Assembly (NCBI GenBank): GCA_034401795.1
Contig: CM067371.1
Coordinates: 83,827,306 to 83,891,305, forward strand
Source of the DNA: Chaetoderma sp. LZ-2023a
Taxonomy: Eukaryota > Mollusca > Caudofoveata > Chaetodermatida > Chaetodermatidae
Direction of reading: 5' to 3'
Length of the DNA: 64,000 nucleotides
In this document: positions 22,477-59,608 of the stretch, piece by piece
Layout of the letters: every line of letters begins with the position of its first letter
How positions within the stretch are numbered: the first letter of the stretch is position 1
Translations under genes and position numbers: made by a program
The notes under the pieces: generated by a model
Told to the model about the DNA's origin: nothing
Seen by the model: only the letters and a program-made list of their open reading frames with translations
Databases searched by the model: none

Positions 22477-22888
22477 AATGTAATTTCCACTGTATCCATC
22501 CATCATATGACGTCATAATCAACTACGTGACGTATAGAATGGCATCGCAATCAATAACATCAGTATGACGTCATGAAAGACGTACATAAGTACGTCACGA
22601 ACGCGTAGTTGAAGACGGACTATGCGTTGTTGTACGAAGTGTATGTCTTTACTATTTAATAAATATCATGTTGAATATTTTGAAATTAATTTGACTGGGG
22701 CTGTTGCTGCCATTGGCAGCAACAGCACCCAGTCAAATTAGTTACAAAATATTCAACAGCTTAACTGTATAGCTTTCAGGAAATTGATAGTCAAAATATT
22801 CGGGGATCGATCTATCCCAACACGGCGAAGTGTTGGCGGAGCTTAGCTAGTGACGGGCGGGGCCTAGCTAAAACTAGAAAAGTCCATT
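22477..22888 (+). mobile_element. CRE-MITE, complete copy
   Basis: The order is: terminal block TAATTTCCACTG, two TGACGTCA sites (22508-22515 and 22566-22573) plus half sites, the word GTATGTCTTTACTATTTAAT, an 87-bp hairpin core (22671-22757, stem GAATATTTTGAAA/CTGTTGCTGCC), CGATCTATCCCAACAC, GGAGCTTAGCTAG, and the end block GCTAAAACTAGAAAAGTCCATT. The end is an imperfect inverted copy of the start. There is no coding capacity. Confidence 0.8.
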
Positions 22889-23472
22889 GTGTAATCAGAA
22901 ATAATTAATAGATAATAGATGGACTAGTTCCACGCTGATCATCCCAGTAAAACGTGTTCGGTTTGTAAAACTGGATTTGGTTTGTAAAACGGGATTCGGT
23001 GCATTGCAACAACTGTGATTAGGTAAGTAAAGTTAAATATTTTCCTTTATGTTGTTTGAAAACTTCAGCTTAGACTAAGCAAATATGGAACAGAATGCAC
23101 CTTTTCTATGATTTTTTAATGTTAGCTTCAAATGGGTTGTAGCCTAATAATGACGTGGTCATGATTTGATTTCGAAAGTAGTGAAGATTTCTCCCAACTT
23201 TTGACTTTCGCTTCAAATATCGTTCTACTAAAAGGTTGTTTTCAAGATATGTCATCAAGCACATATAGTTCGATCTATTCACTACACATATAACGTATAT
23301 ACCACACCTCTGGCTTCTCTATGAAATATCGAAAATCGCATATGAATGTGACAGCTATAGAGAAAATGAGTAAAACTGGATTAGGTTAATATTTGTAGAA
23401 AGTAAAACGGGATTCGGTAATGAGCAAAACGGGATCTGGTGTTTAGTAAAACGGGATTGTGTTTTTTAATTA

Positions 23473-23709
23473 ATGTTTTTCAAGGATGTGCTAGCTGTGC
23501 CTGTTAAATACCGTCGGTGGCATAAGTTTGCAGCAGGTGAGGTGAATCCATCATTAACAAAATATAATTCGAAACCGAAAGTAAATGCGGGAATACAAGT
23601 GCTGCCGCTGATATTAACACCACGTGACGCGCCGATGGATTTCCCACTTCCGTCTCCGTGTTTTCCGGAAGACGAACAAAATGGCCAAATCATTGATTCA
23701 CAACGCTGA
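23473..23709 (+). CDS. small hypothetical ORF beside the left inverted arm
   Basis: 78 residues starting MFFKDVLAVPVKYRRWHKF and ending EDEQNGQIIDSQR. No domain is recognised. Frames on the other strand are equally long, so coding status is uncertain. It lies within 15 bp of the iteron cluster that ends the left arm. Confidence 0.2.
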   Translation: MFFKDVLAVPVKYRRWHKFAAGEVNPSLTKYNSKPKVNAGIQVLPLILTPRDAPMDFPLPSPCFPEDEQNGQIIDSQR

Positions 23710-24229
23710 AATTCGGTGTTTGACGATCGCTGGGACGGTGATAGTATATCGGGTCATTGGTTGATAAACGCTCAGATGGTCTTGTATTTAGATAGTTAAA
23801 CGACGTAGGAGCCTATATATAACTTAGAGACCAATCTGAGATAGTGGAATTGCCCGACTATGCACCTTTAAATCGAAGAAGGATATATAATAGGGATGCG
23901 ATTTGGGGAAAACATTCACATGGTGATATTGATCTGTACACAATGTAAAGGCTTGTTCAACGAGCTTTCTAACTATATGTAGGGCCTATGAAAAGAGAAT
24001 CACTACAGGAACATTAAGTTCACACATGCGTGAAAGCATCACACTGAATGCCAAGTGACTGACTCGATGCAGATTGATAGCTGACAGCCTGTGTTCACTG
24101 CCAATAGCAATCATGACATCAGAATCACGTCTTAATATATGGATATGTATGAACCGTAATTCGATGCAGCTCAAATTGATACGGCCATATTAAAAAACCC
24201 ACCATTTTGATTGGACATCCGCGATACAA
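23710..24229. other. no gene seen
   Basis: Interior of the inverted-repeat structure. No match to other parts of the window was noticed. Confidence 0.35.
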
Positions 24230-26660
24230 CAATTTTGGACGGCCATCCGGGGGCAATAATTAAAATAATAGAATAACTCTCTTATGGAACTTTCCTAAAG
24301 ACGTTTTCCATGGAGGGGCCTGGCGGGCCCAAATGTGATCCTACGGAATGTAGAGCTGACGGTGTTTCTTGCTGGATGACGTATCCCGCACCGTGTGCCA
24401 GTTATTGTACATGCATAATTAATTATAACATTAGCCCACTGTTTTAATCTTGTATCAGTTGTATGACTATCTAATGGGCATCTCATGTTTCGTTCTGCTT
24501 CACTGTCCTGAGAGTGTGCTGCGTCGATGACCTGCCTGCGGAAACCTGTTTGCGGAAACCAGCTTGTGGAAACCTGCATGCGCAAATCTTCCCTGCATCA
24601 AAGATCGTGCCATCTCGTGCTATTTACATGTTAGCGCATCAATTTCAGTGACTCCCGAACCTTTACCGTACCCATGACCAATAGGTACTCAAGTAACTAT
24701 ACTATTGAACATTTAATTATTTCCGTACTTGGTACTGATGACAAATAGGTACCTCACCGGTCCTAGCACCGCATTATTATATTTTCTGTTTCTTACTGTA
24801 GATATTATCTTTATTTACTGTAGGCGCTTCAACTAACAGCACCATAAGGTCTAGTGATCTGTGATACACACTGTTCTCATCGTATTAGTTAGTTGTGTAT
24901 ATGGCAAGTGGGCAATCTAGTCAATATGTTTTGTTTATTTATCAAAACTCTAGAACGCAGTACGCTAGGTAATACTATAAAGCAACATTATATATCCGCA
25001 TCACTATTCCCCCAACACCAATTTTACACTGAGGTCGCTGTTCATGCTCTATTTGTTTGTGCCTGACACGTTACCGACTGAACCTGGCTATTCAGCTCGA
25101 TAGGATAGGTTTAAAGTGGTTAGGGACAATTTCTCCTCGAGAGACTCATAGTGTACGCCTCTTTTCCGGCTGTTGTGGTAACATATCCCCATTGTTTGGA
25201 TTCCCATCGACACATTAGCAAGATCCGACCCTGGGAAACTATCGGAGGTTTTTGAGCGGTGATAGTTAAAGTGCTGATTTACATACACGTCCCCCGTATC
25301 TTCGGATACTAGTAGGTTAGGATCCCCGCCAAAGTAGGAAGCACTGTGAAATACTATTATTTAAATATGTTGTGATACCGGCCTGCAGTGCATCTCTGGC
25401 CATTCTGGAAAATAACCCTAACGATAGGTTAAATGTTAACTCCGTAGTACGCGGTGACGGACGAGATGCGGATCTCCATCCAATTCGTTGTAGTGTCAGG
25501 GTGAGGTCTTAGAACCCACCACGCCCTCACGGGAAGGACGCTAGCGGTGGATATCCGTCTCTCCATCCCCCACCATAAATGACATGCCACTTTCCAAAAA
25601 TTGCTTATGTGAACTGTGAAACTTATCCTGGTGATGTTATATGTGGTTGCGGGACAGGGTAACCGGATCGTTATTTTATTCGGGAGCCTTGCTCTGTAAC
25701 ACGTATGCCCGCTATCCCTTGGAGGTAGATGCTATGCGGGGTAATCTACGGGAAGCTGAGTATCTTCGCCCAACGGATAACTGTATCAAAAGTTAGGTAG
25801 GAATCCCTGCCATGTGCGGCCAAAGCTTGTTTTCGTTACTAATAACTAATAGGTAGGTTAGAATGTAGCAGAAGGCCCGCATAAATAAAGCGGTAACCAC
25901 CAATGCAGTGACTTTGGAACTACATAAGACGGTGACCTGGGAATTCTTTGGAAATCGTTCGTCCCATCTTCACGTAAACCAGTGTGCATCACATTAATTA
26001 CGGCTCCACTAGGATTTTCAGCACTAAGCGTTGTCTGTTTGAACAAAAGAGTGGCCCTTTTTACCAAATCTTTTCCTCCGATTCCGCACTGAAGGCATTT
26101 GCCTGTGATATAGGCCCGCGCGAGGCACTTTCCTCTCGCAACAATATTTTCTTTGTATGTATGTTAGGGGTATACTAGTATATATTAAACTAACCAGTGC
26201 CCTCATAGCGATGCTCTCTTACAGGGATACCTCTGCGGATTTAAGGATATGTGGTGTTACCTCCAGCGAAGCCACGTAGAAAGAACACCGGATGGCTCTA
26301 TGTTGTGTATTATTGTGCTCATTACTGTCAAACGAGTGCAATTGTTTGTACAGTATATATTGAATTTGTGACTGTTTAATTATTAGCATCTTGTCCGTTA
26401 ATCTAAATTATTATGGACTGTCATACTGGTGAGACAAATAGTTGGGACGACACCGTGTGGTTCAATCTCGGCGGCAATGGTCGCATGGCCCCCACTGGAA
26501 CATCAGTGTTCCACCGGCTCTAGAGGCCACTCTTTGTACTTTTCTGAGGGACATGATACGGGATCCGCAACCCCGAGAACTGCAGCTAGCCAGTACTCCT
26601 GCACATCATGCACTTCCGGTGCAACGCAGTGGAGCGACTTAGCGGACCAGCGCACCCCCC
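24230..26660 (+). repeat. unclassified large repeat, copy A (near full length)
   Basis: The 5' half (to about 25490) matches copy B, the whole matches copy C in reverse, and the last 0.5 kb matches copy D. It contains internal TTTCCGCAAAC / CTTGTGGAAACC words near 24550 and ends in a pure C run (26647-26663). No protein family is recognised in any frame. A long non-coding terminal repeat of a large element would fit, but the class is not decided. Confidence 0.8.
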
Positions 26661-26663
26661 CCC
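26647..26663. repeat. poly-C run
   Basis: About 16 C in a row. A similar run lies at 27231-27245. Both are prone to length error in assembly. Confidence 0.8.
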
Positions 26664-26674
26664 CCCCCCGTGAA

Positions 26675-27115
26675 CTACATTATCATCCAGAAACCAATTT
26701 TCAAGATGGCTGGATCATCGTCGATTTCGATATGTCTTTTTCCAGACACCCGATGAAGTCTCAAAGTGATCAAATAAACGTTAAAGGAGCTATCATCTGG
26801 AAACCAATTGTCAAGATGACCGCCTGTGATTGTGGCCATCTTGGATATCAGATCATGGTCAATTTCGATAAGTTTCTTCCTCAGACCTACTCGCATCATC
26901 CTATGAACTTTAAAGCGGATCCGATAAATGGTAATGGTGTTATCGTCCAATAACCAATTAGAAATAAAACTTTCAAGATGGCCACCGATTATTGTCGATT
27001 TCGATAGATTTCTTCTCCAGACTTAGTCCAAGCACCATATGAAGTTTAAAAGCGATCTGATAACTCGTAACGGAATTATCATCTGGAACTCGATTTTCAG
27101 TCACTCCAGCGGAAA
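26675..27115. repeat. tandem array, about three units of 140-160 bp
   Basis: Units start with ATCATCYGGAAACCAATTTT and continue with CAAGATGGC, then GTCGATTTCGATA and GATGAAGTYT-like words (starts near 26680, 26791 and 26940, with a fourth start at 27078). The CAAGATGGC word also marks each unit of the array at 49.8-51.4 kb, so the two may be related. Confidence 0.6.
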
Positions 27116-27535
27116 TTTACTAAAATCGTCTTCTCTTTGCCTTTCAAATAGACATTCAAATAGCAAATATTTTAATCTTCTTGACCAAATGTAACCAGTA
27201 GTGTTTCCCTAGACAGTCACAATTTGCCTGACCCCCCCCCCCCCCATGGCCGACCCTGAGGTTTGTATCGCTATAATAAAGCAAACAGTTACACTAAATT
27301 TACCAACCACAACCCCTGCCATTTATGCTAAGTATGCAATTAAGTCACTAGATTCCATGATTCCTTTATTTACTAGGGTTTCCAAGATGCAAGCCAGAAC
27401 TTAATTGACAGAATTTGCACGTGACTAGTAGACGTGCAATGTAAGAATGTCGCTTCACATACATGTTACTAAAATGTTACTTATCAAAATAGATGAACAC
27501 AAGTATTTTTGCCTGAATTGTGTGTTAAGAAACTA
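27116..27535. other. no gene seen
   Basis: AT-rich, with a C run at 27231-27245. Confidence 0.4.
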
Positions 27536-27698
27536 CATCCCGGTTTACTCATCCACTCTCGTGAACTGAATGTAGTTTTACTCAAAACCAAAAACAGTTT
27601 TACGATGACCGAATCCCGTTTACTCATTTTCTCTATAGCTGTCACACTCATATGCGATTTTCGATATTTTATAGAGAAGCCAGAGGTGTGGTATGTAC

Positions 27699-27721
27699 CA
27701 TATATATATATATATATATAG
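27699..27721. repeat. (TA)n microsatellite
   Basis: About 11 TA units inside the right inverted arm. The left arm lacks the expansion. Confidence 0.9.
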
Positions 27722-28152
27722 ATCGAACTATACGTACTTGATGACATATTTTGAAAACAATCTTTTGATAGAAAGATCTTTGAGGAGAAAGCAAAAACCT
27801 GAGAGAAATCTGCACTACATTCGAAATCAAATCATGACCAAGTCATTATTACAACACCTTTGAAGCTAAAATTGAAACATCATGGAAAGGATGCATTCTG
27901 TTTCATATCTGTTTAGCCTAAGCTGAAGTTTTCAAACAGGCTAAAAGAAAATATTTTAACTTTATAATCACTGTTGTTGCAATGTACCGAATCCGGTTTT
28001 ACAAACCAAATCTCGTTTTACAAACCGAAAGCGGTTTACTGGGATGATCAGCGTGAGTTCTAGCACAGGCTAAATCAAAGTAGTCCTATGTCTAAGAGAA
28101 CAGGATGAATTGTTTAGTTTGCTCATTCATAACGAGTAGCAATCTCAATAGT

Positions 28153-28227
28153 AGGGGTGCCTTGGATGGGGGATGCGGGTGTGGGGGTGTGGGTGGGGTG
28201 GGGTGGGGGTGGGTGGGTGGGGGTGTC
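28153..28227 (+). repeat. G-rich tract, quadruplex-prone
   Basis: More than ten runs of three or more G in 75 bp, separated by single T or short spacers (GGGTGGGTGGGTGGGGG near the end). It lies directly against the end of the next CRE-MITE. Confidence 0.85.
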
Positions 28228-28615
28228 CATTTCGAGCTATGCTCCACCCATTTGTAGTTAAGCTCCGCCCACGTTTTGCGCGTGTTTGGATAGATTTACA
28301 TACTTTGAACCCTGAATGTGTTGTCAGAGATCCTATGGCGCCCAGATAAAATTAGTTTCGAAACATTCAATAGAATGTTTATTAAATAGGATTTACTATA
28401 TAGCCTAATAAACATTATGTTGGATATTTTGAAACTAATTTATCTGGTCGCTGTTGCTGATAGGATCTCTTTGTGTACATATTCAGGATTCAAAACATTG
28501 ATCTATATACTATGAATCAAAGTATATATAAATCTATCCAAACACGAATTATGTGTACACATGGCCCAACGTGTGACGTAATTGATTATGACATCATATG
28601 TTTGAGTGACAGATC
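28228..28615 (-). mobile_element. CRE-MITE, diverged copy
   Basis: In reverse orientation: GAGCTATGCTCCACCC, TTAAGCTCCGCCCACG, CGTGTTTGGATAGAT, two partial hairpin cores (TTAGTTTCGAAACATTCAA near 28350 and GGATATTTTGAAACTAATTT near 28422), then GTGACGTAATTGATTATGACATCAT. The core is duplicated or rearranged relative to other copies. Confidence 0.65.
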
Positions 28616-28659
28616 GGATCCATCCCTTGCCCTCAAAGTTTGATAAAGATACGACAGGA

Positions 28660-30566: not shown

Positions 30567-32234
30567 ATATACACCTGTGCAAAAGTTAAGCACCACCCTA
30601 TTTTTACGCACATGCGAGGGTATATTCATGTGCTATGAAGAAAGCAATAGCATAAACATTTATGTACCCATCCATCTTAGTGCAAGAGGTAATAATGCAA
30701 CTAGAGGAATGCTGATTATGATGGTGGGGAAACACTGTATGTTTTTGTTTGAACTTGAAAACGAGGCCTGAATATGGTTACGTTGACACAACTGACAACT
30801 ATTGCCCTACAGTTGACACACGTGGCTAGATTGTCATTAATGGTGTCTGAAAACGAAGTTTAACATCTGTGCACGAGTTTGAGACTGTCATTATTAATAC
30901 CGGGTATATCCACCTTGTGCCTGGATGACGGCCTGGACACGACGTCTCATGCTGGTCACCAACCGACTGATACGCCATTGTGGTATTCGTTGCCATTCAA
31001 GATGGAGTGCGTCTGTTAATTCCTGTAGGTTCTGCACAGGAGGATCCCTCATTCTCACCATGTTTCCAAGAATGTCCCAGATATGCTCAATAGGGTTCAT
31101 GTCAGGGCTCCTTGCTGGCCATGGTAGGGTTTCGATGGCATTCTGGCGGAGGTATTCATGCACAGCTCTAGCACGATGTGGTCGGGCGTTGTCATCCATG
31201 AATATAGGGTGGGTTCCAGGTGCATGATTTACAAAATGAGGGACCACAACTCTATCCAGTATGGAATCTTGATATTTTTGTCCATTTAGTGTTCCAGGTA
31301 CAGTCAACAGATCCAGCTTACAATCAAATGAGATGCACCCCCATATCATAACGGAACCTCCACCAAATGGAACTTCTTCCATGATGTTACGTTGGTCGTA
31401 CGCCGTGCGTCTGGACCTCCATACACGAGTTCGACCATCTGTGGCATGAAGCAGGAACCGACTTTCATCGGACCAGTGTACCCGTCTCCAGGATCTCATG
31501 TTCCAGTGTCTTCTTTCGTTGCACCACCTCAGACGCTCCTCTTTGTGGTGTGCAGTGAGGAGAGGACGTCTGACAGGTCTCCTAGCTTTCATGCCAGCAG
31601 CATACAGTCTCCTTTTGACGGTAGACATTGACACTCTATTGCGCGTTTCCCATTGCTGGCTGAGCACTCTGCTGTTGGTGAATGGAGATCTAACAAGGCG
31701 TACTAGGGCTCGATCATCACGGGCAGTAGTCTTCTTCGGTCTTCCAGATCTAGGCCTGTCCTTCACCTCGTTAGTTTGCCCATGTTTTGCAATCAAACGA
31801 CTGATTACAGTATGGTTAATGTTCAGCTGTCTGCCAATCTCTCTGGATGACATACCAGTGGTATGCATGCCTATGATTTGCCATTTCACACGATCACTTA
31901 ACCTTCGTCTTGCCATAGCGGTTCACAATCAAGAGCTAATTCTCTCTGTACAAATAAACCACGGTCATGAACACAAAATTCCTAATCTTGTCGCCTAAAT
32001 CTGTATGTAATGTTCTACACCTCAAACTGGACTTTTACATAACTGAGCACGTGTGCTGTTTCCCGCCACGCACGGACATCAAGCGGCGTGAAGTCATGCA
32101 TGCATGTGCATTTCGTACTTGGAATTATGTCAGCTAACGCGGGGACAAAAAGTATGGCAGCCTAGTTGTACCATCATGTTTCTACGTTCTATTGTTTTTG
32201 CTGGTGCTTAACTTTTGCACAGGTGTATATATTG
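30567..32234 (-). mobile_element. complete Tc1-type DNA transposon
   Basis: About 1.67 kb with inverted repeats of about 30 bp that look identical (ACACCTGTGCAAAAGTTAAG at 30571; the complement ends at 32225), set in TA-rich ends as expected for TA target duplication. It carries one uninterrupted transposase gene and lies inside the LINE's reverse-transcriptase region. Identical ends and an intact gene point to a recent insertion. Confidence 0.92.
30894..31916 (-). CDS. Tc1-family transposase, intact
   Basis: 340 residues, the usual Tc1 length, from ATG at 31916 to the stop at 30894. Residues about 1-50 form the first helix-turn-helix (SREIGRQLNINHTVISRLI). Residues 54-62 hold an AT-hook-like RPRSGRPKK, and 70-115 the second helix-turn-helix. 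The catalytic triad is D150 (HWSDES), D242 (MDDNARPH) and E277 (NPIEHIWD), with 34 residues between the last two, so DD34E. GGSVMIWG (186-193) is the expected conserved box. The enzyme cuts and pastes the element at TA sites, acting in the nucleus on the terminal repeats. The coding strand is opposite to the host LINE. All expected residues are present, so activity is possible but unproven. Confidence 0.95.
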   Translation of the reverse strand: MARRRLSDRVKWQIIGMHTTGMSSREIGRQLNINHTVISRLIAKHGQTNEVKDRPRSGRPKKTTARDDRALVRLVRSPFTNSRVLSQQWETRNRVSMSTVKRRLYAAGMKARRPVRRPLLTAHHKEERLRWCNERRHWNMRSWRRVHWSDESRFLLHATDGRTRVWRSRRTAYDQRNIMEEVPFGGGSVMIWGCISFDCKLDLLTVPGTLNGQKYQDSILDRVVVPHFVNHAPGTHPIFMDDNARPHRARAVHEYLRQNAIETLPWPARSPDMNPIEHIWDILGNMVRMRDPPVQNLQELTDALHLEWQRIPQWRISRLVTSMRRRVQAVIQAQGGYTRY

Positions 32235-35470: not shown

Positions 35471-35603
35471 GGGGAAGACTAACATAATGCTAAGACCGCT
35501 ATAAGAACGCATTGTCATGCATTATTTTTGGTTAAATTGACAATCAACGTGTCTCAATTGACGATGCTGTATATTTTGCCCGTGTAATATAGCCTGTGAT
35601 AGC

Positions 35604-35986
35604 TAATGGACATTTCCATTTTAACTATGCCCCACCTATCTCTAGCTAAGTTCCACCCTCACGTCGATCGTGTTTGGACCGATCGATCCCCGAATTCACT
35701 GACTATCACTTTCCAAGTAAGCTGTTTACTATTTTGAAACTAATTTGACTGGGTGCTGTTTCGGCCTATGGCAGCAAAGGCGGGACCGACCAGTCGAATT
35801 AGTTTTAAAACTATTCACCAGCATGTTCATTACATAGCAAAAACATCCAATTCGCACGTGTCAGACTATTAAGCGTTAAAGACGGGCTTAATCGAATTAT
35901 TCATGACGTCATGATTTTGACGTCAACCTACTACACGTCGGGTAGTTGATTATGACGTCCTATGACTAAGTGAGGAAATGGACTAA
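35604..35986 (-). mobile_element. CRE-MITE, complete copy
   Basis: 383 bp in reverse orientation: TAATGGACATTTCC start, CTATGCCCCACC, CGATCGATCCCCGAA, a hairpin core at about 35730-35817, then TGACGTCA at 35904-35911 and 35918-35925, a near match at 35953, and the end block GGAAATGGACTA, an imperfect inverted copy of the start. Confidence 0.85.
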
Positions 35987-36336
35987 TGAATTACTTATTG
36001 ACCATCTGTCAGAAACATTTTAATATTATAACAACAATTGAACTATTTATCAACGATGTCAAAGGTTTTATCCTGAAATTGATGTTTTGACTGCTTGGTG
36101 ACCATAGCATAGAACGACTTATAGTAGGAAATAATCAATATTAGTGGTTAGAGGGCCCAACATATATCAAGATATTACATACATAATATAATTGTTCATA
36201 TGAACCAGCATGGATTATATCCTTTGTCCAGATGTTGTCCAGAAAATGGCTCAGGTGAATATAGGTTGTGATAGGCAAGGTGATTTAGTAGTTCAAAACG
36301 CCTTTAAAAATGTCCTTTTCCGAATTAATTGTATCA
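35987..36336. other. no gene seen
   Basis: AT-rich sequence between two repeats. Confidence 0.4.
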
Positions 36337-36640: not shown

Positions 36641-37010
36641 AAGGCTGGGATTGATCCTACATTATTTAAGCTCCACCCACACTTTGCCCATGGTTGGAAC
36701 GATCGATCGCTGCACTCTCTGAATCTCAATTTCCAGAAAACTATGCAGGTAAGTTGTTGAATATTTTGAAACTAATTTGACCGGTTGCTGTTTCTTCCTA
36801 TGCCAGCAACGGCGCCCAGTCAAATTAGATTCAAAATATTGAACAATGTTTCTGAAATAGTAAGGACATGCAATTCGTACAACGTAATGGACTCTTTGGC
36901 GTTCGTGGAGGAATAAATCGCGTCATTCATGGCGTAATTGATTATGACGTCAGCCTACATATGACGTAGTTGATTATAACGCCATATGATAGACTGGGAA
37001 ACTGGATTCA
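36641..37010 (-). mobile_element. CRE-MITE copy
   Basis: Reverse orientation: AAGCTCCACCCACAC, CGATCGATCGCTG, hairpin core 36759-36845 (TTGAATATTTTGAAACTAAT / TTCAAAATATTGAACAA), CATGCAATTCGTACAACG, TGACGTCA at 36945-36952 and the half site ATGACGTAG. The outer ends are eroded. Confidence 0.8.
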
Positions 37011-37248
37011 ACAATTACTTAAATTATGAAACAGGCGTAACTATTAGCATAAGCTAATTAGCTACATCGTGATGATCATGCCATAAATGGTTGAATCTAA
37101 CAAAATGTCAGTCTGATGTTATTTAGTCCAAAATCGAGCAATTATGACCAAGAAAATACTTACAATATAGGTCCAATTTAACCAAGCAGTTAATGTTGTA
37201 GAAACACGATTCCAACGCGTATGCTTATCAGTAGACGACCAGTAACAG

Positions 37249-37820: not shown

Positions 37821-37994
37821 CCTCCCCCTTCCTCCCTTGCTCCTTACCTCCCCCCTTTCTCTCTCCCTCTCGCTATATGTATATATTAGGTACGTAACTA
37901 GTAGTATAACAAGGCCTCCTTTTATGACAACGTTTTGGTTCTATCCGAATCATACTGTCTGAAATCTACGATCATGGTATTTAGTTAAGACTGG

Positions 37995-38394
37995 TCAATT
38001 CACTTTTCCAGTTTTAGCAATGCCCCGCCCATTTTTAGTTAAGCTACACTCACGCCTCGCTCGTGTTGGGATCGCCTGATCTCTGAACTCCCTGACTATC
38101 AATTTCCAGAAAGCTATACAGGCAAGCTATTGTATATTTGGGAACTAATTTAACTGGGCGCTTATAGGCAGCAACACCCTCCAGTCAAACTAGTTCCAAA
38201 ATATTCAACAGTATGTTTATTAAATAGTAGAGACATACAATTCGTACAACGTGTCGGACTATTAAGAGTTAAAGACGGGTCAAATATAATCATTTATGAC
38301 GTAATGATTATGACATCATCCTACATACCGCTTAGCTGATTATGACGTCATATGACGTCAGATGATAGATGGATACGCTGAAAAGGTGAATGTT
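37995..38394 (-). mobile_element. CRE-MITE in the channel intron
   Basis: Ends TCAATTCACTTTTCCAGTTT and GCTGAAAAGGTGAATGTTGG are imperfect inverted repeats. Between them are AATGCCCCGCCC, CTCGTGTTGGGATCG, a shortened hairpin core (38133-38211), CATACAATTCGTACAACGTG and two TGACGTCA sites two bases apart (38343-38350, 38353-38360). It occupies much of the intron between the first two channel exons. Confidence 0.85.
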
Positions 38395-39319: not shown

Positions 39320-39700
39320 TGACGAGCCTATTAGTCGAGTCAATATATGAAATGACCCACCACAAATTGCAACAGAATTTATTTTATCACCATTCATCTC
39401 AGAAAAGCAAATAAAAGAAAATATTAAGTCTTTCAAAATTAAAGTAGTAGAATCGTGCCTAGTTTGCATAAATCTAATATGGCCGCCACAGTATTTGTGA
39501 TTACATAGTTTTGTCCGAATTTTCACTTCTAATCAAACTATTTTTAACGTTTAAAGATGTTAAAACATGCTCTTTAGTACAAATAAGGAATATATTTTAT
39601 ATAGCAGTTACTATTTTCATAAATCCAAGAGGGCGGCCTCAATGCCAGACTTGTAACCATTTATTGCCTTCCAACCAATCATTTTCCATGGTTTCAAGAT
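39320..39700 (+). repeat. dispersed repeat, copy 1 (CACCACAAATTGCAACAG family)
   Basis: Contains CCCACCACAAATTGCAACAG, TTTATTTTATCACCATTCATC, CATAAATCTAATATGGCCGCC and TTTTCACTTCTAATCAAACT. The same words recur at 42995-43240 in this orientation and at 43400-43660 inverted. Confidence 0.7.
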
Positions 39701-40600
39701 GCTAGTAGATGTAATATGAATCATTGATACATGTAATACAAAAGGACATTGCAGTAGAAATACGTGTATAATATTTGTAAAATTTCAAACGGGCTGCCAA
39801 TAAACCCCAATATTATCCTGATTTGAACGATTTTGCCGTAAACTTTCATGTTAACTTTGAATGTTTAACTCTAATTTCACGTTTAATCACTGTGACATTA
39901 TGGACAACATTGGCCATATAGTTTAATGCTAGATAAATAAAGAAGAGTGACTAACATTTGTGGAACACTGACTTCTACGCAGACTTGTCCTTAACAAACG
40001 ACACCCTTTGGAACCAAATGATGGCAGTTATTTAAAGTTGGTTGTCACAAGACCAGACATGTTAAGGAACTGCCAGTAATTGCCCGTAAATTAAGGTGTA
40101 TTAAAAGATAATCTGTGTTTAGTGACCACTTTATGATGGGACATACGGTGCTTGTTATAGACTGGTTTGACTATTCACTTTTTATATTGAACTTCGAACA
40201 ACACACCGCGTAGATTGCATAATATTCCAAATATATTTTTACAGTCTAATAAAGGTCATGATTTGTGTAAGTACATATAGCCACCACAATAATGATTATG
40301 CAATAATAAGCCAATCAAGATAGCAATCGAGTTGTCTTAAGTAACTACCTTTCTTTAGTGAACACTTAATTTGACGGTCTAAAGTGCACCAGTTATAGAT
40401 AGGGTTATTGCATTTCGTTGGTAGGTAACTCCTATCATGTTCATAGCATTCCCCTGTCCTCTGGCTTCATATGATCCCCATGTGTCATCCACTTGTAGGT
40501 AAATGCGCATACTGTAGAATTTGACAGCTGCGGAAGTTGGGGGTGGAGAAAATCTAGATGTCACCTGATTGACTAATGTACACTGAGACTATGGCATTCT
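39701..40600. other. no gene seen
   Basis: AT-rich intron sequence with no named repeat. Confidence 0.4.
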
Positions 40601-40614
40601 GCCCTGCTGCTATG

Positions 40615-42190: not shown

Positions 42191-42319
42191 ATGTTCTGCA
42201 GGACCTCACAGTTCTGTAAGCTTTCTAATCTGATTGACCCATCCATTATGTCAGCATAGTGTTCCTGAAATAATAATGACTTCTGGCATTGGCGTGACAT
42301 TTGCCTTTTCGCCCCAAAA

Positions 42320-42983
42320 AACATCAATCAGAAAGTCAGTTAGAGCCTTCTCCCAAAGAACATCAATCAGAAAGTCAGTTAGAGTCTTCTCCCAAAGAAC
42401 ATCAATCAGAAAGTCAGCTAGAGCCTTCCCCCGAAGAACATCAATCAGAAAGTCAGTTAGAACCTTCCCCAAAAGAACATCAATCAGAAAGTCAGTTAGA
42501 ACCTTCCCCAAAAGAACATCGATCAGAAAGTCAGTTGGAGCCTTCTCCCAAAGAACATCAATCAGAAAGTCAGTTAGAGTCTTCTCCCAAAGACCATCAA
42601 TCAGAAAGTCAGTTAGAACCTTCCCCAAAAGAACATCAATCAGAAAGTCAGTTAGAGCCTTCCCCCACAGAACATCAATCAGAAAGTCAGTTAGAACCTT
42701 CCCCAAAAGAACATCAATCAGAAAGTCAGTTAGAGCCTTCGCCCAAAGAACATCAATCAGAATGTCAGTTAGAGCCTTCTCCCAAAGAACATCAATCAGA
42801 AAGTCAGTTAGAACCTTCCCCAAAAGAACATTAATCAGAAAGTAAGTTAGAGGCTTCTCCCAAAGAACATCAATAAGAAAGTCAGTTAGAACCTTCTCCC
42901 AAAGAATATCAATCAGAAAGTAAGCTAGAGCCATCCTCCAAAGACCATCAATCAGAATGTCAGTTAGAGCCTTCTCCAAAAGG
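42320..42983. repeat. minisatellite, 39-bp unit, about 17 copies
   Basis: Unit consensus ACATCAATCAGAAAGTCAGT plus TAGARCCTTCYCCCAAAGA. Since 39 is a multiple of three it is open in at least three frames: EHQSESQLEPSPK and ISIRKSVRAFSQRT-like repeats on the + strand, and LTDFLIDVLWEKA repeats on the minus strand (242-residue frame, 42979-42251). It lies just upstream of the decayed PIN-like gene on that gene's strand. No sign that any frame is used. Confidence 0.92.
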
Positions 42984-42994
42984 GGCTTGTCAAA

Positions 42995-43660
42995 TGTTAG
43001 AACAAGTATGACCCATAATGTCTGGCATGCGAACTACCATACAGCAGAAAGTACTTGCAGTATGGCAAGCTGAAACAGACATCCTTTTCACTATTCATCT
43101 CGGAAAACCAAATAACATGCGAAAGGTCATAACATTCAAATAGTATAACAGTGTCTAATTTATATAAATCCAAGATGGCTATCACAATATTTGGCATTAT
43201 ATAGGCCTAGTTTTAAAACATTTTAACTTCTAATCAGGCTATTTAAATGTTAAAAGATGGTAATTGTTTATCACATTTAAGCATTGAAAATAAGCTTGAC
43301 TAGAAGAGAAAATAAGTTCAAGAATGTAATGACAAATATTAAGGCAGTCATCTTTGATTCCTGGACATTATGCGCGTTCCACTACTTAGATTATGCAGGA
43401 AGTTTATGTTTTATTTATATGTACTTAACCGTGGTTTAACCCCTTTAAACATTATAAATAACTTGATTAGAAGTAAAAATGAAGTGAAAATGTGTAATGG
43501 TAAATATCGCGGTGTTCATCTAGGATTTATGCAAATTAAGCACTGTTCCACTAGTTCTATTTTGGAAGACTTGTAATATGTTCTTTTATTTGCTTTTCTG
43601 AGAAGAATAGTGATAAAATAAATTCTGTTGCAATTTGTGGTGGGTTGACATACTTTTCCT
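42995..43660. mobile_element. inverted-repeat element related to 39320-39700
   Basis: Left arm about 42995-43240 (CACTATTCATCTCGG, TATAAATCCAAGATGGC, TTTTAACTTCTAATCAGGCT) and right arm about 43400-43660 (TTGATTAGAAGTAAAAATGAAG, GGATTTATGCAAATTAAGC, GCAATTTGTGGTGGGTTG) are inverted copies around a 160-bp centre. The inner orientation fits a foldback or MITE-like element. Confidence 0.6.
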
Positions 43661-44059
43661 ATGATGACTGGGCTATATCAGGTCGAGCCAATATTATGTT
43701 TGAAAGCTATGTATTTAACACATTCTACATAAGTAAATCCTAAATTATTATATCCTGTAATTCTGAATATGGGCCCCTTTGCGCAGATGCGTCATAATAA
43801 TAAGATTAAGACCTTAGTTTTCTTATTATTGGACTATGTGGCCGCGGGATTAGAAACTATAGCGTTATCACGCTTTTAGCCTTTATTTAACTATGTGTAA
43901 AAAAAAAAGCGCTCAAAATACTATTTATTTCAAATAACCATTTAATTGCCAATACCTTTCAGGGAAATTTAGATTTTTGCAGCCAAAAAGAGTATTTTTG
44001 TAAATATATAACGAAAATTTACAACAAAAAAAGATTTTTGTTATTCCCTAAATGGACAT
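43661..44059. other. no gene seen
   Basis: AT-rich intron sequence. Confidence 0.4.
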
Positions 44060-44623: not shown

Positions 44624-44994
44624 TAATGGACCTTTCCAATTTCGCCATCCATCATATGACGTCATAATTAACTACATGACGTGTAGGATGACGTCATAAC
44701 CATTACGTCATGACTGATTCGATTCTGTCCGTCTTGAACGACCAATTGTTCGACACGTTGCACGAATTGTATGTCTTTGCTATTTGATGAAGATTCTGTT
44801 GCATATTTTGTTGCATATTTTTAAACAGCACACAGTCAAATTAGTTTTAAAATATTCAACAGCTTCCTTGTATACTTTTCTGGACATTGATAGTTAGGGA
44901 GTTAAGAGTTCGATCGATCCCAACACAAGCGAGGCCTGGGTGGACCTTAACTAGTGATGGGCGGGGCATAGCTAAAACTGGAAAGGTGAATTTA
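44624..44994 (+). mobile_element. CRE-MITE with well-preserved ends
   Basis: Start TAATGGACCTTTCCAATTT and end AAACTGGAAAGGTGAATTT are inverted repeats. TGACGTCA occurs at 44657-44664 and 44689-44696, with half sites at 44677 and 44704. The hairpin core (about 44800-44865) has lost most of one arm. CGATCGATCCCAACAC and GGGCGGGGCATAGC follow as in other copies. Confidence 0.85.
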
Positions 44995-45342
44995 AAACAT
45001 CTTTCAGCTGCAATCAGTTATGCGTCAACCTTCTCTCCTGTGCCATGTTCACTGCGAGCTTCCTGGGCTCCTTTAGCTTATTTCTAGTCTTTAGTGGTCC
45101 TCGGTGCGTACTAGGCTTCTTTGAGGTCTGATCGCAAATCACTTAGAAAGTTGATGGCGGCACCTATACCACTGCAAATTACATTACTTTCTGAGCATGC
45201 GTATTTTGAGGCATTCGAAGAACATGTCCCATCGGACACGTTCTTCTCACTCATGGTCGAAAAAATATATAAATTCTAGAATTTCAGAAAAATATTACTT
45301 GAGTGACAGATTGAATTAATCAATTATTATTCTATTTCTCAG
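44995..45342. other. channel intron end, nothing else seen
   Basis: Ends in the acceptor TATTTCTCAG used by the next exon. Confidence 0.45.
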
Positions 45343-47690: not shown

Positions 47691-48404
47691 AACAGTATGG
47701 TCATTAACAATAAATAATAAAACATGATGTAAGAATACTAATAATGTCAGAACGCTATGAACAAGGTGAACAGGCGATGTGAAACCATAGAGGTAGTTAT
47801 ATTGACTCTATGTGTGAAACTGAAAATTGGCGTCATATAGTAATGCGTCATGTGTGACGTAATAATGTGTTACGGCGTGGTGGTTGAAGAGGCTAGTCTC
47901 TACTTTGAGACATGCGCACTCGTGACCGTGATCTCGCTTATACCTTGTATTTAAAAAAACATCTATCCAATTCATAGGAGAAAAGTTATGCCGGCGTGTG
48001 GAGATCAAAGATAACAGATAGCACTGGTCTGTATTTCGTCATATGCTATTAAATATCCAAAAATATTTAAGAAAGTTTCGCACTATATTCTGTTGGAGGC
48101 AAGAATACATGTATTACCTTTTCTGTGACTTTTCCGACATCTGACAATACCTACCAAACACTATTTCAATGTGGTGACTGGTGTGGACCACAGTGCATAT
48201 ATTGCGGACAGGCCTACATAGGCCTACATAGGCCTACATATACAATGTTCATTCTAGAAGGGGCTATGGGGGTGATAGTTTCCCATAATTTTGAAATGAC
48301 CAATATTGGTTGGCCAAGTAGGGGTTCTATGTCCCAATATTATTTTATGGTTAAACCTACTCAACTGCAAAGTAAGGTAACCCTTTCAAACATATTTTTG
48401 ACAT
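47691..48404. other. intron sequence; short (GGCCTACATA)x3
   Basis: Three perfect GGCCTACATA units at 48210-48239. No gene is seen. Confidence 0.45.
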
Positions 48405-48515
48405 TGTAAGAAATATTTTGTTGAATATTTTGAAAATAATTTGGCTGAAAGTGATTGACACGTTAGGCAACAACAGCTTAGATTCAAATTAATGTCAGCA
48501 AATTGAACATCTTGC
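48405..48515 (+). repeat. CRE-MITE hairpin core, partial
   Basis: TTGTTGAATATTTTGAAAATAATTTGGCTG at 48419 faces a decayed arm ending AACAGCTTAGATTCAAATTAA. CRE sites and ends are missing. Confidence 0.55.
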
Positions 48516-49256
48516 CAGTATGGATGAAATTGCCAGTATATTGCAGTTCATGGGAATTAAATGGTGAACATCATCTTACAAGCTGGGTCTAACGTGTAAC
48601 AAATAATTAATGTGGCTATGCATCTCCTAAGTAGGGGGTTTGTTTATAGCCACTGTGCCCCTAATGTTTTTGGTTAATGCCCTACATTGTGGGTGGTCAG
48701 GGTCCTTGGGCCCCCACTTTTCCAGATCCTAGAATGAACACTGCGTGTATTCATTTTCTCCCAGATAATAATAATGTCATGTAGGCCCTAGATTTTTTTT
48801 CACATGAAAATGGGCAAAACGAAAATGGGTAAAAACGAATACTTTCATAGCTAACTGAAGGACCATTTTAGCCACAGAAATGGAGAAAATGACTTCTGAG
48901 AGCATCCAGATGATGCATAGGTCACACTCCTCGGACGACGCTTTCAACAATTTCTGGATTCGGCAAAGATATTACTATACATTTTCAAAAGAAAAATAAG
49001 TTTTTTCACTCAGAATGCAAGAGAAGGCTTCTCAGAACACCTACTTTTCACAATATCACGGGGAGGACCCACGCGCCCCCGCCTTGTGAGACTAGACAAT
49101 CTCTCTCAGGCTCACATCAATTATGACCCCTAACCAAACAATGATCGCGGCGGTTCATATGCGTTACTTTTCAGTACTCTGATATGCCTAATTATTGTTG
49201 TTGTAGCATTCAACTTGATACATATGACTACATATTTTCTGTATCTTCCGATATTT
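48516..49256. other. no gene seen
   Basis: Intron sequence without recognisable features. Confidence 0.4.
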
Positions 49257-49495
49257 TTAACCCTTTAATGATTAAATTTGTTCAAAAAATTCATATATTT
49301 ACCTATTGAATGTCCATTTGCAGGCCAAGAGAATACTATTTTTGAAAATTTACCACTGGGATGACTGGCTCTGTTATCGAGCTAGTTATTACAGTGGTAA
49401 ATTTTCAAAAATAGTTCTCGCTTGGCATGCAAATGGTCATTTCTTAAGACCATTACAGAGGCCGGATTTGGCCGGCCTCGCCGTGAAAGGGTTAA
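49257..49495. mobile_element. piggyBac-type palindromic MITE, complete copy
   Basis: TTAA at both ends (49257-49260, 49492-49495), ends TTAACCCTTTAATGA and GTGAAAGGGTTAA. The interior is a long foldback: TGTCCATTTGCAGGCCAAGA, TTTTTGAAAATTTACCACTG, GGATGACTGGCTC, then the complementary arm. TTAA target duplication with CCCTTT ends is the piggyBac signature. The 239-bp copy has no coding capacity. Confidence 0.88.
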
Positions 49496-49764
49496 AGATC
49501 ATTGCCGACCGGTCCCAATTACAATACATTGTGAAAGCGACTAGCAATGTTAATTGACGTGATGTCGCCAGTTGATTTCAGTAAACCACTGTGAAGAATG
49601 ACCCGGTAGCCCGTTTTCCATTCGGCCTTGAGCGATCTCGCTAAGCGGCCATGACCACTGGCTTAGTTACGAATACGTCATATTGCAAACATAAAGTAAA
49701 CACCATTTCCCCCAGAGAGCGCAATTTTAAGACAGACTATTATCCACGTTCATGTTTTACAAAC
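49496..49764. other. no gene seen
   Basis: Short spacer. Confidence 0.4.
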
Positions 49765-51420
49765 AAAAGGCCCAAGGGCCTTAACATTCAACTGGACCAT
49801 TAGCATTTGGTCTAAAGCATTCAGACATAATACTTTAAATTCAGTAGTAACAAGACATAAAATCCAAAATTTAAATTTAGTAGAAATGACATTTAGTGGC
49901 AAATTAATTATGGACACTGACTACACAATCAGATTGAGCCTTTGATTTGTATTGGTCCATGACAACCATGTTTTATCACAGAACAAATTATCTTGAACAA
50001 ACCTTAATCACCCTTAGGTATCGATGAAATTAAATATAATGAGTTTCAGCCTGCTCCTTACAGCAATTCCTGAGATCTCAGTTTCGAGAACAAGACAGTC
50101 ACTGGAGCAGGCGATTTATGAGGAATAGCGCTGTAAATGATTTCCCGCCATTTTTCAGAAAATCCAAGATGGCTACCAAAAAAGTCAAAGCAATAAAATT
50201 TTGTATAGCAATTCTGAAGCGTACCACCCTAGGGACCTTCCAGCCGAGTTTGGTTTAAATTGGGCAGGCAGTTAATGCGGAGTAGTCTTTTAACTGATTT
50301 CCCGCAATTTAAAAAAAAATCCAAGATGGCCACCAGAAAAATTGACCATTCAAAATAATGTATACAAGTTCTGAAGCATACATGTATGCCTGTAGGGTCC
50401 TTCCAGCTGAGTTTGCTTGAAATCGGCCAAGCGGTTAATGAAAAGTAACCTTTTAACTGATTTCCCAAAAATCCAAGATGGTCGCCGGAAGAATTTCCTG
50501 AAACCTACCAGCCTAGTATCCTTCCAGCCAAGTCTAGTTGGACTTGCCAAAGCAGTTAATAAGGAGTAGCATTTTACATGATTTCTGAATTCTCTACAAT
50601 TTTTTTCGAAAATTCATGATGGCTGCCGAGAAAATAGACCAATCAAAATTCTGTATATATGTTCGAAGCATACCATTCTAGGGTCCATCCAGCTGAGTTT
50701 GCTTGAAATCGGCGAAGTGGTTAATGCGAAGTATGGTTTTAATTGATTTCCAGAAATCTTTGGATAATCCAAGATGAACACCAGAAAAATTGACCAATCA
50801 AAATTCTGTAAACACGTTCTGAAACCTACCAGCATAGTATCCTTCCAGCCTAGTTTGGTTAAAATAAAACGATAATGAGAAGTAGTGTATTAAACGATTT
50901 CACGCAATTTTTTGGAAAATTCAAAATGGTCGAAAAAATAGACAAATCAAAATTTTTTATATGATTTCTGAAGCATACCAAGCTAGGATCTTCCCAACCA
51001 AGTTTGCTTGAAATATCGTTAATGATATGTAGACTTTTAACGGATTTCCAGAAATCTTCAGAAAATCCAAGATGGCCGTCATAAATATGGACCAATCAAA
51101 ATTCTTGTTAGAAGAGTTGAAGCCTACGAGTATAGAATTAGTCCACCCAAATTTCGTCGAAGTCAAGCCATTTATCTAGGAGAAGTAGCATTTTAAATGA
51201 TTTCCGCAAATTTTTCTGAAAATCCAAGATGGCTGCCAGAAAGATTGACCAATCGAATTCTGAATACAGGTTCTGGAGCCTATCATCATAGGATCCTTCC
51301 AGCCAAATTTGGTTGAAATCAGTCAAAGCATAAATGAGGAGATGCGATTTGATGGACGGATGACGGCCAGACGGCCACCATTGCATAAGCTCACTTGGTC
51401 CTTCGGGCCAGGTGAGCTAA
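49765..51420. mobile_element. element with eight tandem 151-bp units and AGCTCAC...GGCC end
   Basis: It begins near the palindrome AAGGCCCAAGGGCCTT (49767-49782). From 50164 a unit repeats at 50164, 50321, 50473, 50614, 50769, 50921, 51067 and 51224 (spacing 141-157 bp). Each has CCAAGATGGC or a near match, TTGACCAATCAAAATTCTG, a CATACCA...TAGGGTCCTTCCAG stretch, AGTTTGGTTGAAATCGGC and GGTTAATGAGGAGTAGC. The element closes with CATTGCATAAGCTCACTTGG and TCCTTCGGGCCAGGTGAGCT (51384-51418). Non-coding; frames of 66-82 residues on the minus strand are chance. Confidence 0.8.
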
Positions 51421-52520: not shown

Positions 52521-52623
52521 GCCGGACAGTTACAATTCCTAACTGTCTAACACGTCTTTATAGCATTAATCTGAAGCGTGCGTGGTATCTGCTTAATAGA
52601 GCTTCTTTGGGCACCCTCAATAG

Positions 52624-52864
52624 ATGCATCTATTTTTAGCTATGCCACTCCCATTTCTAGTTAAGCCATGCCCATTTCTAGCTTAAGCTCGGCGCCACCG
52701 CCCACTTTGTATGCCTATGTAAATAGATTTTAACGCTTTCGAAAATAATGATTTCCCAGAATCCGACTTTCAGGGTAATTATAGGCCTACAGGTAAGCTG
52801 TTAATTATTTATATCAGAAAGAGCTCCCACTCAAGTTACTTTCACGATATTCAACAGAATGTTT
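52624..52864 (-). repeat. CRE-MITE, 5' half in reverse, decayed
   Basis: AGCTATGCCACTCCCATTTC, TTAAGCCATGCCC and CTTAAGCTCGGCGCC resemble the GGGCGGGGCATAGC end of the family, followed by a decayed core ending ATATTCAACAGAATGTTTATT. Confidence 0.5.
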
Positions 52865-52865
52865 A

Positions 52866-53095
52866 TTAACCCTTTAACATTCATATCATTCAAAAACTGC
52901 TTCTGCAGTGGTCTTGAGAAACATCCATTTGCAGACCAAGCGAAGACCATTTTTGAAAATTAGCACTAGAATGGGTGGCTCGATAACCGTGCCAGTCCTC
53001 CCAGTCGTACAGTTTCAAAAATATTCTTCACTTAGTCTGCAAATGGACTTTTTCAATGTGAAAATTGAATCTTTCAAAACAAATTCACGGGTTAA
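52866..53095. mobile_element. piggyBac-type palindromic MITE
   Basis: TTAA at both ends (52866-52869, 53092-53095) with CCCTTTAACA and CACGGG. Hairpin words CCATTTGCAGACCAAGCGAA and CTTAGTCTGCAAATGGA are present. The arms are less similar than at 49257. Confidence 0.8.
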
Positions 53096-53138
53096 AAGAT
53101 TAAAATGTGAATTCACAAAACCCATCTCCTAGAATACA

Positions 53139-53375
53139 TTTACCCCTTCAATGACCAACTTTGCCCACAAAAAAATCAAACTATTTGCTTAATGAATGTC
53201 CGTTTCTAGACCAAGAGAATGCTAATTTTTAAGTTTACCACTGGAATGACCGGATCAGTTAACGAGCCAGTCATTCCAGTGGTAAATTGTCAAAGATAGC
53301 ATTTTCTTGAACGGACATTTAACCAAGACCGTTGCAGAGGCAGGTTTGTGGCCTATTTCGCCATGAAAGTGTTAA
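53139..53375. mobile_element. piggyBac-type palindromic MITE
   Basis: Only 43 bp after the previous copy. The start TTACCCCTTCAATGACC is slightly eroded and the end is CCATGAAAGTGTTAA. The stem TTTACCACTGGAATGACCGG / GAGCCAGTCATTCCAGTGG is almost perfect. Confidence 0.85.
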
Positions 53376-53885
53376 ATGATTTCTTTGATTGACTGGGCAA
53401 TAAATGTGCAGCCAATCAGAGGTCAATGCGCTCAAACATCTATCCATGTATACGCATGCATAGTAATTAATCCATCTGTCTCTCCATCATCCATTTCGCG
53501 AATAAGGATCCAACATTATCCGTGACCGGTTCAAGTCTGTTGTGATGGGAATGGCCCTGGAATAGTGACCAACGCTCTTCCTCTGAATCACTATCTTTGC
53601 AATGTCGTCTTCTGCATATTATATCCGTAGTGAAGCATTCATTGCATACTCCTTCAAACAGCAGTCCTGGTATGAAATCTACAGTGTGAACGATTTTATC
53701 AAGATTATACCAAAATGGGTAAACTAAATGCATTTTCTCCACCTCTTTCTTTTCTTTCAATTTTCTTTTTCTTTCTTCCTTTCCTAGAACTTCCTTTCTC
53801 CTCCCTCACGGACTGTCATCCTTATCACGCTATTGTTATGGATTTTGTGGGTGGGGCATTGGAGGGGTCGAATAGGTAGTGTCTG
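53376..53885. other. no confident gene; 97-residue minus-strand frame
   Basis: The minus strand is open 53760-53467 with a CNECFTTDIICRRRHC stretch and an acidic SDSEEE run. This looks more protein-like than its neighbours, but no family is recognised and no splice sites were established. Confidence 0.25.
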
Positions 53886-54125
53886 CTAACACTTTAATGG
53901 CTAAATTCAGTCATGAAAATGAAATTATTTGCTTATTGAGTGTCCGTTTGCAGGCCCGAAGAAAACTATTATTAAGGGGTTGCCACTGTAATGACATGCT
54001 CTGTTACCAAGCTAGTCATTCCGGTGCTGAAATTTCCGGGGTAGGCTTCTCTTGGCCTGTAAATGGACATTCCTCAAGATCACTACAGAGGCCGGCGTTG
54101 GTCGTCTTCGGTACGAAAGGTTTAA
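53886..54125. mobile_element. piggyBac-type palindromic MITE, eroded
   Basis: GAGTGTCCGTTTGCAGGCCC, TTGCCACTGTAATGACATGC, GCTAGTCATTCCGGTG, CTGTAAATGGACATTCCTCA and ACGAAAGGTTTAA follow in family order. Confidence 0.75.
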
Positions 54126-54240
54126 GAGATCCATGTCCGCATCCTGTTTTGTTGCAGAAATAATGATAATGTAACAAAACAATAAAATCTGTCGTATAAA
54201 GGTAAATGTATAATGTTAAACAAATATTAATTTTAATTAT
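54126..54240. other. no gene seen
   Basis: AT-rich spacer. Confidence 0.4.
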
Positions 54241-56256: not shown

Positions 56257-56356
56257 GCAGGCACATGACGTTGTTTCAACGTTGAATCCACGTTGAAATC
56301 ACGTCATGCCGTGATTTCAACGTGGATTCAATGTGGAAACAACGTCATGTGCCTGC
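56257..56356. repeat. 100-bp palindrome (CAACGTTGAA words) inside the LINE
   Basis: GCAGGCACATGACGTTGTTT ... CACGTTGAAATCACG faces CGTGATTTCAACGTGG ... AACAACGTCATGTGCCTGC. The LINE frame reads SYITGP before it and VPCNDSDHCYVKF after it, so the palindrome is a later insertion. Confidence 0.85.
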
Positions 56357-56359
56357 AGG

Positions 56360-57848: not shown

Positions 57849-57849
57849 T

Positions 57850-58199: not shown

Positions 58200-58219
58200 C
58201 CACAAATGGCTTCTTGCGG

Positions 58220-58370
58220 TGATCGTTAGAAATGTCCAATTGCATTAGCTACTCACCGGAGAACTTGTTTTGAAAGTTTACCACTGGAATGACTGGTTGG
58301 ATAACCGATCCTATAATTCCAGTAGTAAATTGCAAAAGAAAAACCACAATGGTTTCTTGGACGGCAATTA
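58220..58370. mobile_element. piggyBac-type palindromic MITE, degraded
   Basis: GTTAGAAATGTCCAATTGCA, TTTACCACTGGAATGACTGG and ATAATTCCAGTAGTAAATTG remain. The ends are not readable. Confidence 0.65.
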
Positions 58371-58376
58371 GACATA

Positions 58377-58635
58377 GGACATTTTCTATGATAATGGATT
58401 TTTCTGATCTGTTTCCGCAGTATATGACGTCATAATTATTTGGGTCAGATGTAGCTGGACGTCACAATCAAAATGTGTAATGAATGACGTATCTAGCTCC
58501 ACCAGGAACATTGAATAGCCAGTCAAGTATGCGAATTGCACGTCTTTACTATTTAATCAACATGCTGTTGAATATTTTGAAACTAATTTGACTAGACGCT
58601 GCTCGAATAGTATGTCTTTGGTATTTATTCAACAG
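58377..58635 (+). mobile_element. CRE-MITE, 3'-truncated
   Basis: GGACATTTTCTATGATAATG start, TGACGTCA at 58425-58432, ATGACGTAT, GTCTTTACTATTTAATCAAC and the left arm of the hairpin core, then a jump to GTATTTATTCAACAG. It is followed at once by another copy. Confidence 0.75.
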
Positions 58636-59075
58636 TCATTTTCTATGATAATGGCTGGATTCAATCTGTAACTGAAGGATATGACGCCATAATCAATTAC
58701 GTCATATACAGGCTGGCGTCACAATCCAAAATGTATAAATGAATGGCGTATCAATCTCAGTCATGAACATTTAATAGTCCAGCAAGTGTACGAATTGTAT
58801 GTCTTTACTGCTTAATCAACATCGTGTTGAATATTTTGAAACTAATTTGGCCTGTCGGTGTTGCGGCCAGAGGCAGCAAACCTTTAAAAGCACCGAGTCA
58901 AATTAGTTTCAAAATAGTCATCAGCTTACCTGTATAGTTACCTTGAAACTGGAAGTCTCGGAATTCATTATTCAGCATATATATATATATATATATATAC
59001 ATCGATTCCAACACGCAAAAATGGGTGGAGCTTAGCTAGAAATAGGCGTGGCATACCTAGAAATGGATCTCTCTA
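58636..59075 (+). mobile_element. CRE-MITE, long copy with (TA)n
   Basis: TCATTTTCTATGATAATGGC start, CRE-like ATGACGCCATAATC and TTACGTCATATAC, hairpin core 58830-58925, then a (TA)n expansion at 58976-58999, CGATTCCAACACGC, GGAGCTTAGCTAG, GGCGTGGCAT and the end block CTAGAAATGGATCTCT. Confidence 0.8.
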
Positions 59076-59276
59076 TTGAAATTGTCATGAGCAAATTGAG
59101 CATTACATGGCTAATACCACTTGGTAATGCGTGGCCCACACAATATGGGCCACTTGTATTAAGAGACCACCCATATTTATAGGTCACATATTTTAACAAG
59201 GCCAATCACAGATTGTTGCCCTGAATACAATATACCCGTCCTCTGCCGGAGGGAGGATAATTAATCCCACTTGTTA
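59076..59276. other. no gene seen
   Basis: Spacer between two MITEs. Confidence 0.4.
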
Positions 59277-59608
59277 ATGGGCATTTTCATGTTGTCTATC
59301 CATCATATTACGTCATATGATGCCATAATCAACGACGTGACGTATAGGATGACGTCGTAATCATGACTGACTTGATTTAGTCCGTCTTAAATTCTTAATA
59401 GTCCGACACATTGTACGAATTGTGTGTCTTTGCTATTTACAAAACATGCTGATGAATATTTTGAAACTAATTTGACTGGGCGATGTTACTGCCACAAGCA
59501 GCATCAGCACCCAGTCAAATTGGTTTCAAAATAGTCAACACCTTACCTGTATAGTTTTCTGGAAATTGATAGTCAAGAAGCTCAGAGATCCATCGATACC
59601 AACACGAG
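59277..59608 (+). mobile_element. CRE-MITE, 3'-truncated
   Basis: ATGGGCATTTTCATG start, ATTACGTCATATGATGCC, GATGACGTCG, a nearly perfect hairpin core at 59452-59540, then GTATAGTTTTCTGGAAATTG and GATACCAACACGAGCGCGG, where it stops. Confidence 0.82.

Follow-up and report, generated by a model that had tools for sequence, protein, structure and literature searches.

Why should a single stretch of a molluscan genome hold so many perfect copies of one transcription-factor site, and are those copies kept for gene control or did they arrive with the DNA that carries them? The window analysed here, a 64,000-nucleotide stretch of Chaetoderma sp. on contig C13, contains 14 exact copies of the CREB/ATF-type site TGACGTCA (CRE), against 0.73 expected (100 dinucleotide shuffles, largest count 3). 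Ten of them lie within one repeat family of ~400 bp, while those at 13044, 14813, 15146 and 16426 fall outside it. An earlier sequence-only reading had attributed an excess over a low chance expectation to a MITE; that attribution holds, and the ten positions it gave for exact sites are all correct and all within this family.

A CRE-bearing repeat family in the window

A profile built from seven copies found 13 copies or parts of the family in the window (Table 1): seven near-full copies, one half copy, two degenerate copies, two hairpin-only pieces and one 3' end. Where at least nine had been reported before, the layout described then is confirmed, with short inverted termini, a CRE array on one side and then a hairpin. 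Exact sites had also been said to occur in most longer copies, and six of the eight copies in which half sites were counted (below) do carry one, c58b and c59 being those without. Copies c58a and c58b (58363-58860) share sequence ahead of the element as well, which suggests a tandem duplication of ~257 bp. We considered c37 and c44 as the two ends of one large element and rejected this, as the intervening stretches are alike over at most 11 bases. Similarly rejected as part of the CRE MITE were the long hairpins of a second repeat, which form a separate family. Pfam searches of 10 window frames found a Tc1-like transposase and a reverse transcriptase, and the other eight frames had no match.

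Table 1. Features of the window, with positions counted from its first base
Feature	Position	Strand	Remarks
c22, near-full copy	22479..22892	+	exact CRE 22508, 22566
c35, near-full copy	35601..35992	-	exact CRE 35904, 35918
c36, near-full copy without last part of 3' end	36660..37016	-	exact CRE 36945
c37, near-full copy	37992..38391	-	exact CRE 38343 and 38353 (latter in short local duplication)
c44, near-full copy, left hairpin arm damaged	44625..44995	+	exact CRE 44657, 44689
c58a, half copy (5' half)	58394..58604	+	exact CRE 58425
c58b, near-full copy	58650..59079	+	three half sites, exact CRE 0
c59, near-full copy without last part of 3' end	59276..59617	+	three half sites, exact CRE 0
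c28, degenerate copy, matches in pieces	28224..28628	-	
c52, degenerate copy without CRE part	52617..52869	-	
Hairpin-only piece	581..692		
Hairpin-only piece, decayed	48404..48537	+	
3'-end-only piece	12361..12412	+	
Empty-site relative	43906..44046	-	unfilled AATT; counterpart of the locus of copy L002:400-817(-)
Second, separate family (~245 bp)	22097-22227, 49255-49500, 52859-53105, 53134-53376, 53887-54131, 58268-58337, 59928-60169		own long hairpin, no exact CRE
Exact TGACGTCA in other sequence	13044, 15146		7-8 bp upstream of TATA-like boxes; promoter-like
Presumed Ty3/gypsy integrase piece	about 14640-14760		
Tc1-like transposase frame	30894-31922	-	unbroken, 342 aa (HTH_Tnp_Tc3_2, DDE_3)
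Inverted arms	22931-28055		~5.1 kb between arms of ~440 bp, 85-92% complementary in pieces
Inverted arms	39355-43645		~4.3 kb between arms of ~155 bp (96% and 73%, two pieces); 39-bp tandem array inside
Long tandem array	about 6000-9000		48-bp repeats, several frames open
Repeat array	50115-51366		diverged ~150-bp repeats

Anatomy of the element and the proposed role of the array

The consensus of ~400 bp runs from inverted ends through the CRE array (model columns ~33-120) and a conserved stretch to a hairpin of ~90 nt (model columns 175-266) and a 3' part. No stop-to-stop frame of at least 120 aa overlaps the seven near-full window copies, and the family is short, non-coding and present in high copy number with inverted ends, as MITEs are. 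Across 8 copies 87.9% of 248 hairpin cells are paired, and c44, c48 (the piece at 48404), c52 and the half copy c58a have a hairpin that is either damaged or missing; 4 pairs have changed on both sides, where shuffles give 1.9 and match or exceed 4 in 35 of 500 cases, which is too weak a signal of hairpin upkeep.

The 5' parts of 8 copies together hold 36 half sites (TGACG/CGTCA), where mononucleotide shuffling gives a mean of 1.7 (1000 shuffles, largest 6), and their density there is 26.4 per kb compared to 1.4 per kb in the remaining window. Next to the 5' end, the array is made up of roughly three degenerate units in tandem, at spacings of 32 and 26 bp; the alignments of units 1 and 2 and of units 2 and 3 beat all 2000 shuffles, and that of units 1 and 3 was equalled or bettered by 57 of 2000. 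By their positions in the alignments, four of the ten exact sites are the first motif of unit 1, three the first and two the second motif of unit 2, and one belongs to the local duplication in c37.

We consider it probable that this is a high-copy, ISL2EU-type MITE with a subterminal array, whose CREs spread by hitchhiking and then decayed. An ISL2EU transposase, for which the genome holds a candidate, would have mobilised the MITE in trans by cut and paste. The array, with its roughly three degenerate units, would be a subterminal tandem repeat. While the element was active, the array would most likely have been retained either because transposition proteins bound to it or because it was a piece of the regulatory DNA of the parent element. 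Inserted copies would subsequently decay, the CREs fastest at CpG, and host use, if any, would be confined to single copies. An array kept for the element, in copies that decay once inserted, would thus have spread CREs by hitchhiking. One alternative, which we regard as unlikely and which overlaps this explanation except on the role of the array, holds that a palindromic tandem repeat without any protein partner resembles CREs only as a by-product. Units spaced 26-32 bp apart and decay after insertion are compatible with such a by-product, but the CRE block is present across the window subfamilies and in an ISL2EU-like element group, which argues against it.

Genome-wide abundance

The 2.44-Gb assembly (2753 contigs) contains at least 51 matches to c44 (best 40 of 8094 candidates scored). 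The anchored pattern CATA-N8-TAATCAACTACGT matched 16,716 places genome-wide and its reversed control none, and the exact 25-mer with an intact CRE occurs 6,821 times, bearing out the earlier suggestion that the element carries such sites and could spread them. If the window is typical, its density of 13 pieces per 64 kb would extrapolate to several hundred thousand genome-wide. Within 60 loci, themselves retrieved via the family, 116 of 130 exact TGACGTCA sites lie inside family matches. Two exact patterns sought in viral contigs had no match. One retrieved locus (L002, C13:83703154) is a 93% identical copy of window positions 44633-44992 that lies ~169 kb away and shares its flanks, and the two are probably a segmental duplication.

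Conservation and decay of the CRE sites

The sequence-only reading had proposed comparing CRE conservation with that of neighbouring bases; in aligned copies this check placed the CRE columns above some comparison sets and not above others. In the window alignment, whose 13 rows cover 12 of the pieces (all but the 3' end at 12361), the two CRE octamers have identities to the consensus of 0.903 and 0.891. These values exceed those of the remaining 5' part (columns 4-165; p=0.010) and of all other columns taken together (0.815; p=0.047), with no significant excess over the flanking eights (0.832; p=0.20). They rank 59 and 80 of 387 octamers and are equalled by 6.6% of octamer pairs. From loci L001-L060 we kept 163 family matches, of which 111 reach the array and 80 were used, leaving out the window's own copy (1) and pattern-selected copies (30). 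In these 80 copies elsewhere the CRE columns reach 0.916 and 0.896, compared to 0.842 for the flanks (p=0.047) and 0.859 for all other columns (p=0.16), with octamer ranks of 84 and 142 of 370; for 51 neighbour copies alone the corresponding values are p=0.077 and p=0.21, with ranks of 71 and 198 of 387. In the 80 copies 115 of 156 CRE CpGs survive, compared to 647 of 1011 other CpGs (p=0.019), and the CRE CpGs fall within the span of single-CpG retention, from 23/67 to 33/40. With p-values so mixed and the CRE CpGs inside that span, the excess is mild and inconsistent.

Retention was also counted genome-wide with one 25-mer frame, freed either over the CRE octamer or over the neighbouring TAATCAAC; freed over the latter it has 13,798 matches. 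An intact CRE octamer stands in 40.8% of places (6,821/16,716) and an intact neighbour octamer in 49.4% (6,821/13,798), a difference whose chi-square p of about 2e-51 is not to be taken literally because the copies have common ancestry. The octamer is therefore not intact more often than its neighbour, as a CREB/ATF function would call for, but less often, and the idea of genome-wide upkeep of the CRE sites finds no support in this count. Among the first 100 anchored places listed, 42 are exact, 24 read TGATGTCA or its complement TGACATCA, and 34 have TG or CA at the CRE centre; the six non-CpG bases of the CRE are kept in 91-97 of these places and the eight bases of the neighbour octamer in 84-96. 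Since the CpG changes while the other bases are kept as in the neighbour, CRE decay occurs mainly at CpG. The sites decay about like adjacent bases and faster at CpG, and so give little sign of upkeep for gene control.

These counts weigh on a further alternative, in which the array would serve the host or the element as a functional cAMP-responsive enhancer or promoter and the family would have wired genes to CREB/ATF. Exact canonical sites do lie in thousands of places, often two to a window copy, and this alternative can draw on the columns conserved above some comparison sets, on the higher CpG retention (p=0.019) and on the precedent of p53 sites in a 346-bp fish transposon, as given in the available text of PMC3485254. 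The same column excess (p=0.010 and 0.047 in the window, 0.047 elsewhere) and CpG retention speak against hitchhiking. We nonetheless judge a working enhancer or promoter quite unlikely, given the lower retention of the octamer than of its neighbour and the octamer ranks of 84 and 142 of 370 in the 80 copies; moreover, decay at CpG suggests methylation, which according to the available text of PMC1796609 inhibits CREB binding, with TGATGTCA bound less well. It is very doubtful, too, that the family forms a large reservoir of often paired CREs in which a minority of young or unmethylated copies respond to cAMP or soak up CREB/ATF, the element's own activity having once been tied to cAMP signalling.

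Insertion site and candidate partner element

The ends of the MITE are short inverted repeats, most often A-AT-GGACCTTTCCAG. Comparison of 65 joined flanks with the window and the retrieved loci gave one clear empty site, at which the flanks of copy L002:400-817(-) match window positions 44046-43906 at 88.7%; the empty site reads TTGGCAATTAAATGG and the filled one TTGGAAATTCG...TCCATTACATGG. In 61 full-ended copies (including three duplicated loci, whose removal leaves 58 independent copies), the 5' end carries AAT in 48 and the 3' end ATT in 51, with both present in 40. The inverted repeat starts with GG in 24 of the 61 at the 5' end and 33 at the 3' end, the commonest start at both, and with TC at the 5' end in 20; AA is preceded by C or T in 45 and by A in 11. 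No longer target duplication was found in the 58 independent copies over 729 length/offset combinations, the best match being ~0.33 against 0.26-0.27 expected (best z about 4). A stronger diagonal was rejected as a target duplication, as it lay away from the junction and in the set that still held duplicated loci.

In the available text of PMC4482050, ISL2EU elements (PHIS superfamily) have the target A|AT|T with AT duplicated and inverted repeats that begin with GG, and autonomous copies encode a DDE/HTH/THAP transposase and a YqaJ gene. The target A|AT|T is that of the MITE, where AT duplication and no duplication leave identical letters. Where the earlier reading knew of no described family with this layout, the MITE family can, by the sequence of its target site, be placed with the ISL2EU kind. 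Insertion between AA and TT with nothing duplicated, as in the Spy group, could read the empty site as AA^TT and would agree with the 58 independent copies that have no longer duplication, but we find it improbable, because the AAATTT preference reported for Spy in the same text is not that of the MITE (A precedes AA in only 11 of 61) and the ISL2EU target accounts for the identical letters.

YqaJ has at least 67 matches in the genome (best 150 of 158 candidates scored). Locus L079 encodes DDE_Tnp_4/HTH_Tnp_4 domains at 252-1061(-) and YqaJ at about 1501-1962(+), an ISL2EU-like pair on opposite strands. The 5' half of the MITE is present in seven related loci (L078, L079, L084-L088), four of which also have an exact CRE; there is shared sequence on both sides of this 5' half, and it is therefore an internal part or an old insertion. 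To judge from these alignments, the MITE-like 5' half in the L079 group may itself be the old insertion. This shared flanking sequence counts against the ISL2EU explanation, as do the 270-aa DDE_Tnp_4/HTH_Tnp_4 frame of L079, in which no THAP domain was found, the 5' end, at which GG is not dominant, and the recovery of a single clear empty site.

Implications and comparison with known systems

A single transposon family has thus supplied the genome with perfect transcription-factor sites by the thousand, and the count across the genome argues against their being maintained. A simple count test, setting the site octamer against an equally anchored neighbour octamer, helps to separate the spread of a site from its use, and the large natural set of CREs in graded decay is a resource for work on binding and methylation.

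Among known elements, the MITE resembles ISL2EU in its A|AT|T target, and the genome has YqaJ and DDE/HTH genes; GG is the commonest start of its inverted repeats but not a universal one. The MITE differs in being ~400 bp long without a long reading frame, and its autonomous partner is a candidate. With Spy it shares the AA/TT junction and the lack of a long target duplication, but not the insertion preference. MITEs that spread E2F sites in Brassica embody the same idea of site amplification, with a different factor and a different kind of host. No MITE with CRE sites appeared among the literature matches listed. In the available text of PMC3485254, the zebrafish element EnSpm-N6_DR is 346 bp long, has 210 copies and carries p53 sites, and 14 of 27 tested sequences were responsive in reporter assays. 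It is comparable to the MITE in being a short, non-autonomous DNA transposon, each copy of which carries two sites for a single transcription factor; its sites are for p53 and have a demonstrated reporter response, whereas the family described here carries CRE sites in far more copies. By this comparison, EnSpm-N6_DR is the nearest tested precedent.
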